Source: Achromobacter xylosoxidans
GTDB lineage: Bacteria; Pseudomonadota; Gammaproteobacteria; Burkholderiales; Burkholderiaceae_B
Reading direction: 5' to 3'
Length of the DNA: 64,000 bases
Assembly (NCBI RefSeq): GCF_001457475.1
Contig: NZ_LN831029.1
Coordinates: forward strand, 682,001 to 746,000
The notes beneath the pieces are model-generated. The model was not told where the DNA came from and did not search any database. It saw only the letters and a program-made list of their open reading frames with translations. A program made the translations under genes and the position numbers. This document shows, one piece after another, positions 2,097 through 9,843 of this stretch. The stretch's first letter is position 1. Each line of letters starts with the position of its first letter.

Positions 2097-3038
2097 ATGG
2101 CGACCCCCGTTCTGGTCTGCGGTTCGATGGCGTTCGACACCATCGCGGTGTTCGAAGGCCGCTTCAAAGAGCACATCCTGGCCGACCGCATCCAATCCCT
2201 GAGCGTGTCGTTCCTGGTGCCCAGCATGCGCAAGGAATACGGCGGTTGCTCCGGCAACATTGCCTACAACATGAATCTGCTGGGCGGCAAGCCGGTGCCG
2301 GTGGCCACCGTGGGCGAGGACGCCGGTGAATACCTCGAGCGCCTGACCGGCCTGGGCATCGACGTGAGCCGCGTCAAGGTGGTGCCGGGCACGTTCACCG
2401 CGCAATGCTTCATCACCACGGACCTGGACGACAACCAGATCACCGCGTTCCACCCGGGCGCCATGTCGTTCTCGGCCAGCAATGACCTGAGCGATGCCAA
2501 GGCGAGCTGGGGCATCGTCGCCCCGGATGCCAAGGAAGGCATGTTCGCCCACGCCGAACGCCTGCACCGCAGCGGCATCCCCTTCATCTTCGACCTGGGC
2601 CAGGCCATGCCGCTGTTCGACGGCGCCGACCTGGAACGCATGCTCGGCCTGGCCCAGGCCCTGACCGTCAACGATTACGAGGCCGGCGTGGTCGAGCAGC
2701 GCACGGGCCGCAGCATGGCGGACATCGCCACCGGTTTGCAGGCGGTGGTCGTCACCCGCGGCGCCGAAGGCGCCACGCTGCTGACCGAAGGCAAGAGCTT
2801 CCAGATCGAACCGGTGCGCGCCACCCAGGTGGTCGATCCCACCGGCTGCGGCGACGCCCAGCGGGGCGGCCTGCTCTACGGCTTGACCAGCGGCTGGAAT
2901 TGGGAAGACAGCTGCCGCCTGGGCAACGTCATGGGCGCCATCAAGATCGCCTCGCGCGGTCCGCAGAACCATGCCCCGTCGCGCGCCGAGATCGACGCCG
3001 TGCTGCACGCCACCTACGGCATCCACCTGCCGGCCTGA
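2097..3038 (+). CDS. PfkB-family carbohydrate/adenosine kinase
   Basis: This 313-residue protein belongs to the ribokinase/PfkB family. It has the N-terminal glycine-rich region GGCSGNIAYN near residues 45-55 and the C-terminal signature DPTGCGDAQRGG, in which the GxGD anion hole and catalytic Asp are kept. Family members phosphorylate sugars or nucleosides with ATP, and this subgroup is usually annotated as adenosine kinase-like; the substrate cannot be read from the sequence. I chose the second ATG because the Shine-Dalgarno AAGG lies about 9 bases before it but directly abuts the ATG at 2088. The middle Ala/Phe of the usual DTTGAGDAF signature are Cys and Gln here. Confidence 0.85.
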   Translation: MATPVLVCGSMAFDTIAVFEGRFKEHILADRIQSLSVSFLVPSMRKEYGGCSGNIAYNMNLLGGKPVPVATVGEDAGEYLERLTGLGIDVSRVKVVPGTFTAQCFITTDLDDNQITAFHPGAMSFSASNDLSDAKASWGIVAPDAKEGMFAHAERLHRSGIPFIFDLGQAMPLFDGADLERMLGLAQALTVNDYEAGVVEQRTGRSMADIATGLQAVVVTRGAEGATLLTEGKSFQIEPVRATQVVDPTGCGDAQRGGLLYGLTSGWNWEDSCRLGNVMGAIKIASRGPQNHAPSRAEIDAVLHATYGIHLPA

Positions 3039-3258
3039 GCCCGTTTCGGGTTGACGATCCGGCTGCGGCGGGAACCCGGCCGCGTGGCAATGGTCGAATA
3101 GCCGGCAAAAACAGGCCGTGGCGGTTTAGCGCCGCGGCCGGTTCGCAAGCTGGTTTTCCGCCCGTGGCGGTGCGTTTCAGTGTGTTGCACGTTAGGCTGC
3201 CGTCCCCGTAGGGCGGAGTATTATCAGATCGTCGGCTGTGCCCGATCGAGGAGTCCAA

Positions 3259-3762
3259 ATGAACCAAAGCAAAACCTTTTCCTTGTTGACGCCGCGTACC
3301 GGCCGGTGGCTGGCCGTGGCTGCCGTCGTGACCTCGATGGCAGTCCTGGGCGGTTGCGCCAATCGCAGCGCGTCCAGCGGTGTGTATAGCTATGATCAAG
3401 CCCAGCGCGAACAGATCGTCCGCACGGGCACGGTGACGGGCGTGCGCCCCATCGTCATCCAGAACGACAAGTCCAGCGGCGTCGGCATGCTGGCTGGCGG
3501 CGCGCTGGGTGGCGTGGCAGGTAACGCCATCGGTGGCGGCACGGGCCGTACCATCGCCACGGTCGGCGGCGCCATCCTGGGCGCACTGGCCGGCAATGCC
3601 GTGGAAAACCAGGTTGGCAAGAATTCCGGCTACGAAATCACGGTGCGCCTGGATAACGGCGAAACCCGCGTCGTGGCCCAGGAAGCCGATGTGCCGATCA
3701 GCGTCGGCCAGCGTGTGCAGGTCATCAGCGGCGCCGGTCCGACCCGCGTCACGCCGATGTAA
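3259..3762 (+). CDS. Glycine-zipper outer membrane lipoprotein (SlyB/Pcp-like)
   Basis: This 167-residue protein has a signal peptide ending in the lipobox LGGC, so it is predicted to be lipidated on Cys near residue 34. A glycine-zipper segment rich in GGALGGVAGNAIGGG and AILGALAGNAVE follows. The C-terminal beta domain (EITVRLDNGETRVV) is typical of the SlyB/17 kDa surface antigen family. These lipoproteins sit in the outer membrane and are linked to envelope integrity. The start ATG is preceded by GAGGAG. It is monocistronic, with its own terminator directly downstream. Confidence 0.9.
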   Translation: MNQSKTFSLLTPRTGRWLAVAAVVTSMAVLGGCANRSASSGVYSYDQAQREQIVRTGTVTGVRPIVIQNDKSSGVGMLAGGALGGVAGNAIGGGTGRTIATVGGAILGALAGNAVENQVGKNSGYEITVRLDNGETRVVAQEADVPISVGQRVQVISGAGPTRVTPM

Positions 3763-3787
3763 TCCTTCTGGCGCCTGCCACCCCCCG

Positions 3788-3812
3788 AAGCCCGCGCATG
3801 CGGGCTTTTTTT
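3788..3812 (+). terminator. Rho-independent terminator
   Basis: An 8-base stem (AAGCCCGC / GCGGGCTT) with a GCAT loop runs into seven or more T residues, 25 bases after the lipoprotein stop codon. Confidence 0.9.
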
Positions 3813-4177
3813 CGTTCCGGCGGGCGGCTGGACAATCGCCTTGGTGGCTGGGGACAGGGCAGTCAGCGAGGCGAGGAGGGGATTCTGTCGCTCCGCTGCA
3901 ACGCAACACCCGGGATTTACCCCAAGACGTTACCTTTTCGAGCCATTTATAGCGATTTGGTCTGTAAGTTTCATGGCGATTCAACGGTTGAAGTGCCATG
4001 ATGGCACCCGTGAACGAAGTCGCCGCGTGAATTTGATGTAACCAAGTGCATCGGCGACTCCTTCCGGAAGGCTGAAATCTGTCAGACGACTTTCAGCTGA
4101 TTTCTATATACTCGCCGTCCAGAAACTCGGGGCGGGGATGATTTTTGCCAACGAGGCAATGTAACGCCGTACTAGCT
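3813..4177. other. Intergenic region upstream of the dlt-like operon
   Basis: These 365 bases contain no convincing gene and have lower GC content near the right end. A possible -10 element TATATA lies at 4105-4110 without a good -35. A short inverted repeat (GCTGAAA at 4073-4079, TTTCAGC at 4091-4097) flanks 11 bases just upstream and could be an operator. The operon promoter is expected here. Confidence 0.5.
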
Positions 4178-4417
4178 ATGCACACCGAGCAAGAACTCCA
4201 CACCAAGATCGGCGCGATCGTCGAGTCGATCGTCATGAAGAAAGTCACTCCCGATACGCAACTGATTGCCACCGGCCTGGTCGATTCGCTCGCCGCCGTG
4301 GATATCACGCTGGCGGTCGAGGCGGAGTACGGCTGCAGCATCCCGGCTCCCGAGATCGCCGAACATCTGCAGTCGGTACGCACGCTCGCCGGCTATGTCG
4401 CTGCCAATCTTTCGTAA
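4178..4417 (+). CDS. dltC: Acyl carrier protein, DltC-like D-alanyl carrier
   Basis: This 79-residue acyl carrier protein should carry activated D-alanine on a 4'-phosphopantetheine arm attached to Ser37 of the motif GLVDSLAAVD. It has the four-helix carrier pattern and is dominated by acidic and hydrophobic residues. It is the first gene of the operon and overlaps dltD by 23 bases, so the two are translationally coupled. The assignment as a D-alanyl rather than a fatty-acyl carrier rests on the neighbours (DltD, DltB and DltA homologues). I chose the ATG at 4178; an in-frame TTG lies 33 bases upstream. Confidence 0.85.
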   Translation: MHTEQELHTKIGAIVESIVMKKVTPDTQLIATGLVDSLAAVDITLAVEAEYGCSIPAPEIAEHLQSVRTLAGYVAANLS

Positions 4418-5573
4418 TCCCCGCCTGCTGTCCCACGCCGCGGCCGCCATCACGGCGGCGGCGCTGGCGTACGGGGCTTTTTGCGGCGCGGATGACGTAC
4501 TGTCCCGGATTGTCCGCCCCGTTTCCACGGTGGCGTCGGACAAGAACAACTATCTGCCCAACCTGGGGCCGGATTGGGGCACGCAGCACGTCAACCTGAA
4601 TCGCCTGGGCAATGCGCTCAGCGACGGCACGTTGGTGGTGCTGGGTTCGTCCGAGCTGTCCAGCCACGACTTGCGCTTCGTTCCCTACCGTTTCTTCCCC
4701 GAAGAACTGAAGGTACCGACGCTGGCCTATGGGCACGCGATGTTCCAGTCCTACGGCATCGTCAGCGTGCTGGAATCCGTCGCGGATTCACTGACCCCCA
4801 ACACGCGCCTGGTGATCATGGTGTCGCCGGCCTGGTTCGCCTCGGGCGGCCAGCTGCCTCGCAGCGCGTTCGCCGAACACGTCACCGGCCCGGTCTGGGA
4901 TCGTCTCTGGGACAAGCCCAGCACGCGCGAACAGATGCAGAACTGGATCAGCGACAACGCCAACTGGGGCTTGCTCTGGCTGATCGCCAACGGCCAGGTT
5001 GCCGAGCTCAAGGACAAGCTGTCGCTGTGGTGGAACGCGCGCAAGGAACCCGCGCCAGATCGTCCGCGCAGCAAGCTGTCGGTGCCCGCGCATCGCTTCG
5101 TGACATGGCCCTCGTCGGCGCGGCTCAACCCGGGCCAATGGTCGCGCCTTACGCACGAAGCGCGCGAAGTCGAACACCAGCTGGGCGGCAACAACCCCTA
5201 CGACGTGCGCGACGACTACTACAAGCAATACCTGGCGCCCTTGTATTCGCCGGCGCGAAACGAGTTCGCCGACGTCGATCCGCTCACGCGCACCGAGCTG
5301 GGCGACCTGTCGCGTGTCATGGCCCTGTTGCAACGGCGCAAGGTCAAGGCCTACTTCGTGATCCAGCCGTTCAATCCCAAGCTCATCCTCGACGTCGAAC
5401 GCTTCGATCCGGTGGTGGCCGCCATTACCGGCATGTGCCAGCGCTACCAGATGGGTTGCCTGGATATGTACAGCATTCCCTTCGAGCCGGGCATGGTGCG
5501 CGATGACATGCATCTGGCCGAGCTCGGTTGGGCGATGGCGGACCAGGGCATTGCGGAGTACTTTTCCCGATGA
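4395..5573 (+). CDS. dltD: DltD-like D-alanyl transfer protein
   Basis: This 392-residue protein has one N-terminal membrane helix (about residues 12-32) and a large extracytoplasmic SGNH-like domain, as in DltD. The nucleophile motif GSSE lies at residues 84-87. The C-terminal DDMHL motif supplies the Asp-x-x-His pair of the known DltD triad. In Gram-positive bacteria DltD completes D-alanine transfer to teichoic acid outside the membrane; here the acceptor must be another periplasmic or outer-membrane molecule. The ATG lies inside the end of dltC, and the stop overlaps the next start as ATGA. Confidence 0.85.
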   Translation: MSLPIFRNPRLLSHAAAAITAAALAYGAFCGADDVLSRIVRPVSTVASDKNNYLPNLGPDWGTQHVNLNRLGNALSDGTLVVLGSSELSSHDLRFVPYRFFPEELKVPTLAYGHAMFQSYGIVSVLESVADSLTPNTRLVIMVSPAWFASGGQLPRSAFAEHVTGPVWDRLWDKPSTREQMQNWISDNANWGLLWLIANGQVAELKDKLSLWWNARKEPAPDRPRSKLSVPAHRFVTWPSSARLNPGQWSRLTHEAREVEHQLGGNNPYDVRDDYYKQYLAPLYSPARNEFADVDPLTRTELGDLSRVMALLQRRKVKAYFVIQPFNPKLILDVERFDPVVAAITGMCQRYQMGCLDMYSIPFEPGMVRDDMHLAELGWAMADQGIAEYFSR

Positions 5574-5776
5574 ATCTCATTCCAGGCGCCGATGCGGCGC
5601 AAGGCGAAGCCGGCCAGAAGCAGGACGCCCGCAAGGCGGCCAAGGCCTGGGGGCGGCGCTTCTTCTGGCACCTGTGCCTGTATATCGGGGTGATCCTGGT
5701 GTTCGTGCTGCAGGCGCAGCCCACCACGGGCAGCGGCGGACCTATCAAGGTCGAATTCCAATATCAACAGTTCTGA
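5570..5776 (+). CDS. dltX: DltX-like microprotein ending in FxYxxF
   Basis: This 68-residue protein has a charged N-terminus (about 1-30), one membrane helix (about 31-49) and a short extracytoplasmic tail. The tail ends exactly in FQYQQF (residues 63-68), matching the C-terminal FxYxxF motif of DltX. Work on Gram-positive DltX proposes that this Tyr (Tyr65 here) accepts the D-alanyl group from DltB and passes it on. The start overlaps the dltD stop (ATGA), and dltB begins 7 bases after its stop, so it sits inside the coupled operon. It is short enough to be missed in automated annotation. The motif is seen directly; the function is inferred. Confidence 0.8.
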   Translation: MNLIPGADAAQGEAGQKQDARKAAKAWGRRFFWHLCLYIGVILVFVLQAQPTTGSGGPIKVEFQYQQF

Positions 5777-5783
5777 CCGCAGC

Positions 5784-6911
5784 ATGGAATTGTTCGCAAG
5801 TTTGAGCTTTTTCGGCGGCGCCTTGTTCGGCGGGCTGGGCCTGTTGGCATACCGTTCGGTCGGCATGCCGCTGCGCATCGGTTATCGCCACATCATCGGC
5901 GTGATCTGCCTGGGCGTGTGGATGGCGGTGTTCTGGGCGCGTCCCTACCAGCCCATCGCGCTGCTGGCCATCTCGGGCAGCGCGCTGTGGGCCATGCGCC
6001 GCAACTACATCCCGACCTGGCTGGCCGTTGTCATCACCATGACGCCGCTGCTGCTGGTCAAGACGGGCGTGTCGCACCTGGGCGCGATGCTGGGCCTGTC
6101 GTTCGCCACCTTCCGCGCCATCGACGTGCTGCTGTTCGCGCCGCGCAACGAGCGCGTGTCGCCGCTGGACTACTTCATCTACCTGTTCTTCCCCCTGACG
6201 CTGCTGGCCGGCCCGATGTACCGCTGGCGCAATTTCCAGGCCGACCTCAAGCGCGGCTATGAAGGCGTCAACCTGAACACCTGGCTGACCGGCCTGGAAC
6301 TGATCATGCTGGGCGTGATCCAGAAGTTCGGCCTGGCCGAGCTGATCTGGCGCTACGGCTTGTCGACCCTGGACGCCCACGATTATTCGTTCACCGGCGT
6401 GGCGCTGAACGCCTCGCTCTACAGCGCCTACCTGTTCTTCGATTTCGCCGGCTATTCCACCATGGCCATCGGCATCGGCATGCTGTTCGGCTTCACCTTG
6501 CCGATCAACTTCCGCAACCCGCTGGCGACGCTGAATCCCCAGGACTTCTGGCGCCGCTGGCATATCAGCCTGTCCGAATGGCTGCGCGACGTCGTGTTCA
6601 TGCCGATCTACAAGGCGCTGAGCAAGACCTCGTTCTTCTCGCGCCACCGCCTGGCGGCGCAGAACATCGGCATCTTCGCCACGCTGTTGGCCATGGGCGT
6701 ATGGAACGGGTTGTCGGTGCACTACATCGTCAGCGGCCTGATGTTCGGCGCCTATTCGGTCGGTCACAACCTGCTGATCAACGCCGCCCGCACCCGGCCG
6801 GCGCTGCAGGCCACGCTGGCGCGGCCCGTCATGCGTTTCCTCGGACGCGTGCTCACCCTGATCCTGGCCGCCCTGGCGCTCTACGTGTTCAGCGGCCGCA
6901 GCCCCATCTGA
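5784..6911 (+). CDS. dltB: DltB-like MBOAT O-acyltransferase
   Basis: This 375-residue polytopic membrane protein belongs to the MBOAT family. It shows the conserved block DFWRRWHISLSEWLRD with His260, and the following helix pair LLAMGVWNGLSVHYIVSG. DltB moves the D-alanyl group from the carrier protein across the membrane. The usual invariant histidine of the WHG motif is Asn308 here (codon AAC), and the nearest His is His313; the later HG of DltB proteins is also absent (MFG). The carrier-facing MBOAT core otherwise looks intact, with no frameshift. It follows the microprotein by 7 bases and precedes dltA by 16. Confidence 0.85.
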   Translation: MELFASLSFFGGALFGGLGLLAYRSVGMPLRIGYRHIIGVICLGVWMAVFWARPYQPIALLAISGSALWAMRRNYIPTWLAVVITMTPLLLVKTGVSHLGAMLGLSFATFRAIDVLLFAPRNERVSPLDYFIYLFFPLTLLAGPMYRWRNFQADLKRGYEGVNLNTWLTGLELIMLGVIQKFGLAELIWRYGLSTLDAHDYSFTGVALNASLYSAYLFFDFAGYSTMAIGIGMLFGFTLPINFRNPLATLNPQDFWRRWHISLSEWLRDVVFMPIYKALSKTSFFSRHRLAAQNIGIFATLLAMGVWNGLSVHYIVSGLMFGAYSVGHNLLINAARTRPALQATLARPVMRFLGRVLTLILAALALYVFSGRSPI

Positions 6912-6927
6912 CGCCGGGAGTTTCGGC

Positions 6928-8376
6928 ATGCGTTTCGACCTGAAGACTTTCCAGTTCATTGACTCCGCGCGCGCGCCCGACGCGCTCGCGGTGGTCGGCG
7001 CCGACCGCAGCCTGACCTGGGCGCAACTGCGCGAGGAGGCCGAGGCCTGGGCCGCCCAGGCGCGCGAACACGGCGCCGCGCCGGACGTGCCGGTGGCCAT
7101 CTATGGCCACAAGGAAGCGTCGTTCTTCGTTGCCATGGTTGGCGCGCTGCTGATCGGCGCGCCATTCGTGCCGGTCGATACCATCTACCCGCCGGAACGC
7201 CTGCGCCGCATCGTCGAGATCGTGCGCGCCGCCGCCGTCTACGACGCCGCGGCCGGGGGCTTCGAGCCGGGCGAGGGCGCCGAGCTGGCCGAGCGCGGCC
7301 TGGCCTACGTCATGTTCACGTCCGGCAGCACCGGCGACCCCAAGGGCGTGCAGATCGGCCGCGAAAGCGTCGGCCTGCTGGGCGACTGGATGCTGGGCAG
7401 CTTCGGCCTGGGCGAGGCGCCGGTGTTCATGAACCAGGCGCCGTTCAGCTTCGACCTGTCGATGTACGAGGTGTTCGCCACGCTCGCCGCCGGCGGCACT
7501 TGCGTGCTGAACTCCCGCGAACAGATCGGCGCGGCCGCCACCTGGATGGGCCGGCTGGCGCAGAACGGCGTAAGCGTGTGGGTGTCGACGCCGTCGTTCG
7601 CGCACCAGCAACTGGCCAACCGCGACTTCTCGCCGGCCACGCTGCCGACGCTGCGCACCTTCCTGTTCTGCGGCGAGCCGCTGCCGGCCGCGCTGGCGAA
7701 GAAGCTGCGCCAGCGTTTCCCGGACGCGGTCATCCTGAATACCTATGGCCCGACCGAGGCCACCGTTGCCACCACCTGGATCGCCATCACCGATGCCGTG
7801 CTGGCGATGCACGACCCGTTGCCGGTCGGTCATGCCAAGCCGGATTGCGAGCTGCGCATCCAGGACGGCGAGATCTGCATCATCGGCGCCCACGTCATGC
7901 GCGGCTACCTGAACCGCCAGGACCTGAACGAGACCAAGCTGTTCGTGGCCGAGGATGGCCGCCGCGGCTTTCGCACCGGTGACCTGGGTGAGTTGGGCGC
8001 GGACGGGCTGCTGTTCTGCCGTGGCCGCATGGATGACCAGATCAAGTTGAACGGCTATCGCATCGAGCTGGCCGAGATCGACGAGGCCTTGCATGGTCTG
8101 CCGGGCGTGGCGGGCGGCGCCTGCGCGGTGCTGCGCCGGCCCGATGGCACGGCGGTGCGCCTGATTGGATTCGTTGCCGGCACGGCCGCGGGGCGGGATG
8201 ATGCCTGCCTGCTTGAGCAGGATGCGCTGTCGGGTTGGAAGGAGCGGCTGGCGCAGCGCCTGCCGCCCTACATGGTTCCGTCCGAGCTGGTGGCCTGCGT
8301 GGCGCTGCCCATGTCGAACAACCACAAGATCGACCGCAAGAAGCTGATCGATATCTACGCCGCGATTCCGGCGTAG
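6928..8376 (+). CDS. dltA: DltA-like D-alanine--carrier protein ligase
   Basis: This 482-residue enzyme belongs to the adenylate-forming family, which activates D-alanine with ATP and loads it onto the carrier protein. Core motifs are in order: FTSGSTGDPKGV (phosphate loop), NTYGPTEATVA, FRTGDLGE, NGYRIELAEID (hinge and C-domain) and the C-terminal NHKIDRKKL with the catalytic Lys. The length is close to DltA (about 500). There is no condensation, carrier or thioesterase domain, so it is a stand-alone ligase and not a peptide synthetase. It is the last gene of the operon, and the order C-D-X-B-A differs from the Gram-positive order X-A-B-C-D. Confidence 0.87.
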   Translation: MRFDLKTFQFIDSARAPDALAVVGADRSLTWAQLREEAEAWAAQAREHGAAPDVPVAIYGHKEASFFVAMVGALLIGAPFVPVDTIYPPERLRRIVEIVRAAAVYDAAAGGFEPGEGAELAERGLAYVMFTSGSTGDPKGVQIGRESVGLLGDWMLGSFGLGEAPVFMNQAPFSFDLSMYEVFATLAAGGTCVLNSREQIGAAATWMGRLAQNGVSVWVSTPSFAHQQLANRDFSPATLPTLRTFLFCGEPLPAALAKKLRQRFPDAVILNTYGPTEATVATTWIAITDAVLAMHDPLPVGHAKPDCELRIQDGEICIIGAHVMRGYLNRQDLNETKLFVAEDGRRGFRTGDLGELGADGLLFCRGRMDDQIKLNGYRIELAEIDEALHGLPGVAGGACAVLRRPDGTAVRLIGFVAGTAAGRDDACLLEQDALSGWKERLAQRLPPYMVPSELVACVALPMSNNHKIDRKKLIDIYAAIPA

Positions 8377-8405
8377 CGCGCCGGTTGCGGCGCATGGCGG
8401 AAAAT

Positions 8406-8441
8406 GGCCCGGGCGGTATTGCCGGGCCGTTTCCGTTTTTT
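8406..8441 (+). terminator. Terminator of the dlt-like operon
   Basis: A stem of GGCCCGG and CCGGGCC is followed by GTTTCCGTTTTTT. It lies 30 bases after dltA and abuts the convergent yggT stop codon. Confidence 0.8.
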
Positions 8442-9001
8442 CAGACGCCCATCAGGCCGTAGCTCAGGCGCGCCAGGACCATCAGGAGGACCTGCGCCAC
8501 GATCAGCAGTACCAAGGGCGAAAAGTCGATCGAGGTGCGCGGCAGCAGCCGGCGGATGGGATCCAGCATCGGCGCGGTCAGCGCCTGCAGCAGCGGCATC
8601 ATGGGCGCCATCGGGTTGACCCACGACAGCACTGCCTGGATCAGGGTCAGCCACACGATCAGGTTCAAGGCCCACTTGAGCGCCATGAGCAGCGCCGACA
8701 GCATGGCCGAAGGCAGCAATGCGGCCGGGATCAGCGCGCCGATGGCGACCAGCCAGATCAACACCAGATAGACCAGCGCCGACAGCCAGGTTGCCACCAG
8801 GCTGGTCCAGTCGATCTTGTTGCCCGCGGGAATGATCTTGCGCAGGGGCAGCACCAGCCAATTGGTGGCCTGGTAGATGACGCGCGCCAGCGGGTTGAAG
8901 GGATGCAGCCGTATCGCGTGCATCCAGGCGCGGGCGATCAGGGCCGCGCCGAACAGCGTGAATGCGATTTCGAGCAGGAAGCGGAGGATTTCACCGAGCA
9001 T
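8441..9001 (-). CDS. YggT family integral membrane protein
   Basis: This 186-residue membrane protein has two similar halves of paired hydrophobic helices, as in the YggT family. Each half carries the family pattern of a Pro-rich turn after a helix (LPLRKIIPA near residue 55, LDPIRRLLP near residue 150). The family has been linked to osmotic tolerance and membrane biogenesis, but its biochemical role is not established. The gene is convergent with the dlt-like operon. Confidence 0.85.
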   Translation of the reverse strand: MLGEILRFLLEIAFTLFGAALIARAWMHAIRLHPFNPLARVIYQATNWLVLPLRKIIPAGNKIDWTSLVATWLSALVYLVLIWLVAIGALIPAALLPSAMLSALLMALKWALNLIVWLTLIQAVLSWVNPMAPMMPLLQALTAPMLDPIRRLLPRTSIDFSPLVLLIVAQVLLMVLARLSYGLMGV

Positions 9002-9121
9002 GGACGCTATCTACCTAATGAAGACGGCTTTTATTGTCTCACGGCAATGCGGCAACGGTGGCGTCCTGCCCCTCGAGCGGCGTTCTTTCTTGAGGTAGGC
9101 GCGCCAGGCGGCCCGAAATAA

Positions 9122-9149
9122 AAACCGCCTGGCCAAGGCCAGGCGGTTT
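9122..9149 (-). terminator. Bidirectional terminator after the H1-like gene
   Basis: A perfect 13-base stem (AAACCGCCTGGCC / GGCCAGGCGGTTT) with an AA loop lies about 30 bases after the H1-like stop codon. Confidence 0.8.
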
Positions 9150-9179
9150 GAGGCACTGCTGCCGTTGTGACCGGTCCGA

Positions 9180-9812
9180 TTACGGACGGCCACCCGTCGG
9201 GAACGGCCACGACGCGGCGGGGTTCAGCGCGGTCTTCGCGCCCGGAGCGGCTGCCGTGGACGGCGGCGTGACGGGCTTCTTCGGAGCGGCTTTCTTCGCA
9301 GCCGGCTTCTTGGCAGCGGCGGGCTTCGCAGCCGGCTTGGCAGCGGGCTTCTTGGCGGCCGGGGCCTTCTTGGCTACGACTTTCTTGGCAACCGCCTTCT
9401 TGGCGACGGCCTTCTTGGCTACCGCTTTCTTGGCGACGACCTTCTTGGCAACCGCTTTCTTGGCGGGGGCCTTCTTGGCTACCGCTTTCTTGGCGACGGC
9501 CTTCTTGGCGACGGCCTTCTTGGCAACCGCCTTCTTGGCGACGACCTTCTTGGCCGCTGCCTTCTTGGCTACCGGCTTCTTGGCCGCGACTTTCTTGGCG
9601 ACGGCCTTCTTGGCTACCGCTTTCTTCGCGACCTTCTTGGCGGCCGGCTTCTTGGCGGCAACCTTCTTCACCGCCGGCTTCTTGGCGGCGACCTTCTTGA
9701 CGGCTACCTTCTTGACGGCAGCTTTCTTGGCCGGAGCGGCCTTCTTAGCTACTGCCTTCTTGGCGGCGGGCTTCTTCACCGCTTTCTTTACGGCTTTCTT
9801 GGCTGTTGCCAT
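9180..9812 (-). CDS. Histone H1-like DNA-binding protein (BpH1 type)
   Basis: This 210-residue, very basic protein consists almost entirely of degenerate AAKK/AVAKK repeats (units such as KKAVAKKAV and KKVAAKKPA). A short Pro/Ala tail without lysine (about the last 30 residues) ends it. It resembles Bordetella BpH1 and the C-terminal tail of eukaryotic H1, which bind and condense DNA through charge. I chose the second ATG (MATAKK) because AGGAG lies 7 bases before it, while the ATG at 9818 is one base from the AGGAG. Repeat number is expected to vary between strains by slippage. Confidence 0.9.
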
Positions 9813-9843
9813 GGTCATGCTCCTTAGGTTCAGGGGTCCCAGA

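Follow-up and report, generated by a model that had tools for sequence, protein, structure and literature searches.

A complete Gram-negative dlt operon in Achromobacter xylosoxidans with a DltX-like microprotein and a DltB carrying asparagine at the MBOAT histidine site

The closest described relatives of the system studied here are the Dlt systems of Gram-positive bacteria (dltXABCD, as in Streptococcus thermophilus and Staphylococcus aureus), in which DltX ends in an acyl-shuttle tail with the motif FXYXXF, and the PatA-PatB and AlgI systems, in which the acyl group sits on the tyrosine of a C-terminal hexapeptide, both as given in PMC12148441. We analyzed a dlt operon of Achromobacter xylosoxidans within a window of 64,000 nucleotides (contig NZ_LN831029.1, positions 682,001 to 746,000), by which we mean the whole stretch of DNA examined. 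The operon occupies positions 4178-8376 of the window on the plus strand and holds the complete Dlt gene set (A, B, C, D and X), that is, the same five components as in Gram-positive bacteria, with the acyl-shuttle tail of DltX and the fold of DltB. The order is C-D-X-B-A, compared with D-X-B-A-C in enterobacteria and X-A-B-C-D in Gram-positive bacteria. Consecutive genes overlap by 23 and 4 bases or are separated by 7 and 16 bases, and these values agree with those of an earlier sequence-only reading of this DNA, which had named the five components in this order. Teichoic acid is not expected in Gram-negative bacteria.

Related Gram-negative loci have been described. In Bordetella pertussis, the dra locus (BP2987-BP2991) is described in the consulted parts of PMC9858536 and PMC4448142 as needed for the incorporation of D-alanine into the outer membrane, and the general system is not new, as the sequence-only reading had stated. 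Kamar 2017 (PMC5541007), in its accessible portion, treats DltX as a Firmicute family and notes dlt genes in Dickeya and Pectobacterium. The operons of these two genera are arranged D-X-B-A-C and encode a DltB with the motif WNG and a DltX tail FEYQKF; their carrier gene comes last, unlike that of the window. Pandin, in 2016, is said to have named DltX in dltDXBAC operons of soft-rot enterobacteria, so that a DltX in Gram-negative bacteria is not entirely without precedent. Gram-negative dlt and dra loci are thus already known, as are the five-part system and the acyl-tyrosine relay of Gram-positive bacteria. What appears to be new is that the tail is conserved across phyla and, most of all, that DltB, a membrane-bound O-acyltransferase (MBOAT), lacks the histidine of its family: in the open-licence papers searched, we found no report of the asparagine in Gram-negative DltB or of the cross-phylum conservation of the tail.

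To compare the locus, we used a DltB alignment to scan named genomes and kept the best 80 of at least 567 confirmed loci, consisting of 28 loci from Burkholderiales, 3 from Photorhabdus, 24 from other enterobacteria, 4 from Campylobacterota and 21 from Bacteroidota or similar bacteria. One locus labelled Chryseobacterium is enterobacterial by sequence and was counted among the 24 (L092), and the Bacteroidota-type set includes one locus labelled Chlorobiota (L132) and one labelled only as uncultured bacterium (L135). A second set comprised 239 DltB proteins among the database matches listed (two lists of 120 each, sharing one protein), which partly overlaps with the loci.

Alignment to the solved DltB of S. 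thermophilus, in a numbering consistent with the residues named in the available text of PMC11035591, places Asn308 of the window protein at His336 (WNG versus WHG) and His260 at His289. The His336 column is asparagine in 80/80 loci and in 236 of the 238 listed database proteins in which the site is readable, the remaining protein being frame-broken; threonine and aspartate each occur once and histidine never. The loop histidine is present in all 80 loci and all 239 listed proteins. As controls, His336 was found in 9/9 Gram-positive DltB proteins and in 30/30 readable AlgI/PatA-like proteins. Tyr345 is also changed, to serine in every locus (Ser317 in the window), and the Phe400 column reads Leu, Ile or Met. 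Among the active-site residues that the same source lists, Asp249, Phe250, Tyr253, Trp285, His289, Trp335 and Phe403 are kept in 80/80 loci. The window DltB has the MBOAT fold and, with His260, the expected residue of re-entrant loop 2 (Asn, Asp or His; His289 of DltB), and it lacks the invariant histidine of helix TM6'. From these alignments we conclude that the MBOAT histidine is wholly replaced in this DltB branch, which spans several Gram-negative phyla. Since asparagine takes its place, DltB would need another catalytic residue. A quick tree, built with the site column included, contains 32 rows of the Gram-negative branch and carries a long-branch warning for one locus (L047).

The second element is the microprotein encoded between dltD and dltB, which the sequence-only reading had singled out as a DltX-like protein of 68 residues ending in FQYQQF; the translation bears out this ending. 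A motif-guided search recovered an open reading frame (ORF) with an [FY]xYxxF ending between dltD and dltB in 77/80 loci, and in the three others (L121, L138 and L141) the contig starts at dltB. Both the small frame and its final six residues are therefore conserved, the condition on which the sequence-only reading had made its proposal depend, although an exact FxYxxF is not universal: among the 77 tails, position 1 is F in 72 and Y in 5, position 3 is always Y, position 4 is Q in 72, A in 3 and E in 2 (asparagine in Gram-positive bacteria), and position 6 is always F. Elsewhere in the 80 loci, an [FY]xYxxF ending occurs in only 1 of 15,399 closed ORFs, and of the window's 951 stop-to-stop stretches with 30 codons or more, the microprotein alone ends in FxYxxF. 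All 29 loci of a second sample, partly of the same species, carry the tail (18 FQYQQF, 6 YEYQQF and 5 FEYQ[KQ]F). The 4-base overlap of dltD and dltX is seen again in 60 loci, and the last 41 codons are constrained, with ratios of nonsynonymous to synonymous change (pN/pS) of 0 to 0.43 in nine comparisons. We conclude from these patterns that the microprotein is real.

The window DltX has a variable cytoplasmic N-terminus, a single membrane helix predicted at about residues 31-48 and a tail that we place in the periplasm because Lys and Arg precede the helix and a polar tail follows it, as the positive-inside rule would have it. Its N-terminal ~27 residues form an extension particular to Achromobacter that varies in length, whereas many of its relatives begin at MKRFFWH; an A. 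xylosoxidans protein (P0049) is identical over the first 28 residues, and hypothetical protein AXYL_00632 of A. xylosoxidans A8 is a relative. When 25 Gram-negative proteins were compared with five Gram-positive DltX by hhalign, the profiles aligned from the helix through the tail over 38 columns (probability 93.1, E 3.3e-7), which identifies the Gram-negative microprotein as a homologue of Gram-positive DltX. The DltX family PF12459 matches 8 of the 25 Gram-negative members (best E 4.6e-4), and three of ten members scanned singly, all under the 25-bit cut-off. The five Gram-positive tails read FIYNEF (four) and YIYNDF (one), and the latter brings a tyrosine at the first position within the range of the family. 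A search of PDB sequences with the window DltX at E <= 10 gave a lone weak match, which is unrelated.

The catalytic residues of DltC and DltD are in place. Ser37 of DltC is kept in 74/74 aligned loci, and Ser86, Asp370 and His373 of DltD in 75/75, with two short rows omitted. In one Sulfurovum locus, dltX is preceded by a tandem of two dltD-like genes (L125:240-2872). The nearest solved structures to DltA are those of DltA itself (3fcc/3dhv, E 1e-92), and its Cys248 aligns with Cys269 of Bacillus cereus DltA, a residue which we take to be tied to the choice of D-alanine; cysteine is found in 27/27 readable Burkholderiales loci. The donor in the Achromobacter genome is thus likely D-alanine. 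In contrast, the pocket position, which is Cys in Gram-positive DltA as in the window, is Ile in 24/24 enterobacterial loci (L092-L117), and Met, Ala or Ile in 12/21 Bacteroidota-type loci; the amino acid carried in those systems may therefore not be D-alanine.

A DltB of the window type was found in 43/43 Achromobacter genomes (one a fragment), in 8/15 genomes of the genus containing B. hinzii, in 24/200 sampled genomes of the family (at E <= 5e-143) and in 10/149 genomes of the enterobacterial family, one copy being interrupted by stops. WNG and the loop histidine are present in DltB of B. pertussis (P0180 and P0184, both 81% identical to B. hinzii DltB), B. bronchiseptica (P0179), B. holmesii, B. 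avium, Dickeya parazeae and D. undicola (L098), and Bordetella species have the same microprotein, so that B. pertussis dra shares the orthologous DltB site. A dltB mutant of D. dadantii is described in PMC3544676, as far as that source was available, with 99% mortality in polymyxin and no significant change in aphid killing. The change occurs in DltB of both B. pertussis and Dickeya, and phenotypes have been reported for both systems; a WNG DltB therefore works as far as these reports go, and on the residues kept we regard Gram-negative dlt operons with such a DltB as not decayed. Individual operons in decay do occur: one has stops within dltB (L156, genome G624), and that of a Candidatus Symbiopectobacterium has a short dltA, a broken dltX start and no dltC that could be found (L114).

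We propose that the operon encodes a Gram-negative Dlt relay from DltC through DltB, Tyr65 of DltX and Ser86 of DltD to an acceptor in the envelope, with His260 acting as base and Asn308 at the histidine site; we put the probability of this reading at about 65%. DltA would load D-alanine onto DltC, as its family and pocket cysteine suggest, and DltC would dock at the cytoplasmic face of DltB, with DltX inserting its tail into the periplasmic mouth. There, the loop His260 could deprotonate Tyr65 as Asn308 holds the thioester carbonyl. His260 and Asn308 would form a mirror image of the usual MBOAT arrangement, in which the histidine of the helix acts as base with help from an Asn, Asp or His on the loop. 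The D-alanyl-tyrosine tail would then hand over to the Ser86-Asp370-His373 site of DltD, which would transfer D-alanine to the acceptor. The mirrored pair gains support from the residues kept and from the solved DltB, in which His289 lies beside the bound inhibitor according to the consulted part of PMC11035591.

Another histidine might replace the lost one, foremost His313, five residues on at the start of the next helix, with His260 still assisting. His313 is near the site in sequence and is present in the window and 54/80 loci, but the other loci have Asn (20), Tyr (5) or Arg (1), and among the database proteins listed only 27/120 and 63/119 have histidine there, the rest having Arg, Asn, Gln, Lys, Asp or others. 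The loop histidine is the only histidine of an active-site column kept in all 80 loci and all 239 listed proteins. We therefore rejected His313 as replacement base since it is not conserved, and consider a substitute histidine unlikely. Equally unlikely is that DltB serves as a conduit with no acyltransferase activity, loaded DltC presenting D-alanine to DltX or DltD with no need for a histidine. Loss of the hallmark histidine does mark HHATL, an MBOAT suspected to be inactive (PMC5831804, in the part consulted), and Tyr345 is gone together with the histidine; yet the loop histidine and most of the aromatic cluster (Trp285, Trp335, Phe250, Tyr253 and Phe403) are kept in 80/80 loci, as is the acyl-acceptor tail, which a mere conduit would not need. 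Mammalian HHATL moreover has leucine at the site and its activity is doubted, whereas the asparagine is conserved in several phyla, in operons whose partner genes are intact. The least probable reading is a textbook relay with nothing unusual in DltB, which fits the five components, their order and the other intact catalytic residues but is already contradicted at the DltB step by asparagine in the His336 column of every locus. Likewise, the relay from DltB to DltX tyrosine to DltD expected by the sequence-only reading agrees with the intact residues of DltC and DltD, although its DltB is not a textbook enzyme because His336 is missing.

Several observations weigh against the relay with His260 as base. 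The helix histidine is described as essential in canonical MBOATs in the accessible parts of PMC12148441 and PMC8316800, and the asparagine is not absolute, as two database proteins with Thr or Asp are natural variants at the Asn308 position (P0221 and P0224). The branch is maybe not strictly Gram-negative, because one WNG relative comes from a metagenome bin labelled Bacillota (P0266), which may stem from a lineage of diderms or from misbinning of the contig. The Dickeya DltB sequences are those of D. undicola and D. parazeae, the mutant phenotype that of D. dadantii, and the window microprotein matched no family of Pfam or NCBIfam at E <= 1, PF12459 included.

It is also rather probable, in our judgement, that we are dealing with an MBOAT branch that works without the invariant histidine through the mirrored pair, which would have co-evolved with the separate DltX acyl-tyrosine tail and the Tyr-to-Ser change in the pocket. 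PatA-PatB and AlgI likewise combine the MBOAT fold with an acyl-tyrosine hexapeptide, but in PatA/AlgI the MBOAT itself carries the tail (FLYFQF or the like) and retains WHG with its histidine, whereas here a protein of its own carries the tail and asparagine replaces the histidine. MBOATs act in Wnt, Hedgehog and ghrelin acylation, in fat synthesis and in alginate and peptidoglycan acetylation, and the one histidine that defines them is called invariant or universally conserved in reviews. A bacterial branch without it is a natural experiment on its role and makes the catalytic mechanism testable; if the proposal is true, the histidine would be a common solution and not a requirement. Inhibitors such as m-AMSA, which rely on His336 and Tyr345 in the DltB of Gram-positive bacteria, may consequently not act on the Gram-negative enzyme. 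The conserved tail also settles which small gene to seek in Gram-negative dlt and dra loci, whose annotations usually leave its product as an unnamed hypothetical protein.

The features of the operon are listed in Table 1. The dltC ATG at 4178 sits within a longer frame opened by TTG, and DltB scores 209 bits against TIGR04091, under the family cut-off of 375 bits. A scan of 3700-8600 revealed no sigma-70-type promoter, and Rfam at gathering scores gave no match in 3000-9500. Terminator-like sites are not commoner than in shuffled sequences (3 found versus 3.2 expected).

Table 1. Features of the A. xylosoxidans dlt operon (positions in the window)
Feature	Position	Strand	Evidence and sites
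Terminator-like hairpin upstream of operon	3787..3808	+	Consensus match only
dltC, D-alanyl carrier protein, 79 aa	4178..4417	+	PF00550 E 1.8e-8; phosphopantetheine Ser37 = 4286-4288
dltD, membrane-anchored SGNH transferase, 392 aa	4395..5573	+	PF04914 E 8.2e-59; Ser86, Asp370, His373
dltX-like microprotein, 68 aa	5570..5776	+	Tail FQYQQF; Tyr65 = 5762-5764
dltB, MBOAT, 375 aa	5784..6911	+	PF03062 E 7e-16; TIGR04091 E 1e-61
dltB sites			Re-entrant-loop His260 = 6561-6563; Asn308 = 6705-6707; Ser317 = 6732-6734
dltA, D-alanine-carrier ligase, 482 aa	6928..8376	+	TIGR01734 E 1e-115 (under cut-off); pocket Cys248 = 7669-7671
Terminator-like hairpin downstream of dltA	8411..8432	+	Consensus match only

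Conserved neighbours were also screened for a candidate acceptor. When 2,089 ORFs from the flanks of the 80 loci were clustered, no family beside the operon occurred in more than 2 taxon groups, and the two clusters that reached two groups consisted of 3 and 2 loci; the flanks cover ~4 kb only, and an acceptor gene may lie farther away. Just 5' of the operon, 3238-3762 encodes a glycine-zipper outer-membrane lipoprotein (PF05433), which outside this group is not kept beside dlt. On the 3' side, the minus strand encodes a YGGT-family membrane protein (8441-9001) and a Lys/Ala-rich histone-H1-like (HC2) protein (9180-9818). Finally, a plasmid of Ligilactobacillus murinus carries a lone dltB (L159:2280-3688) right after a gene for a bactofencin A-like cationic bacteriocin, a position that suggests a role of the plasmid DltB in self-protection.

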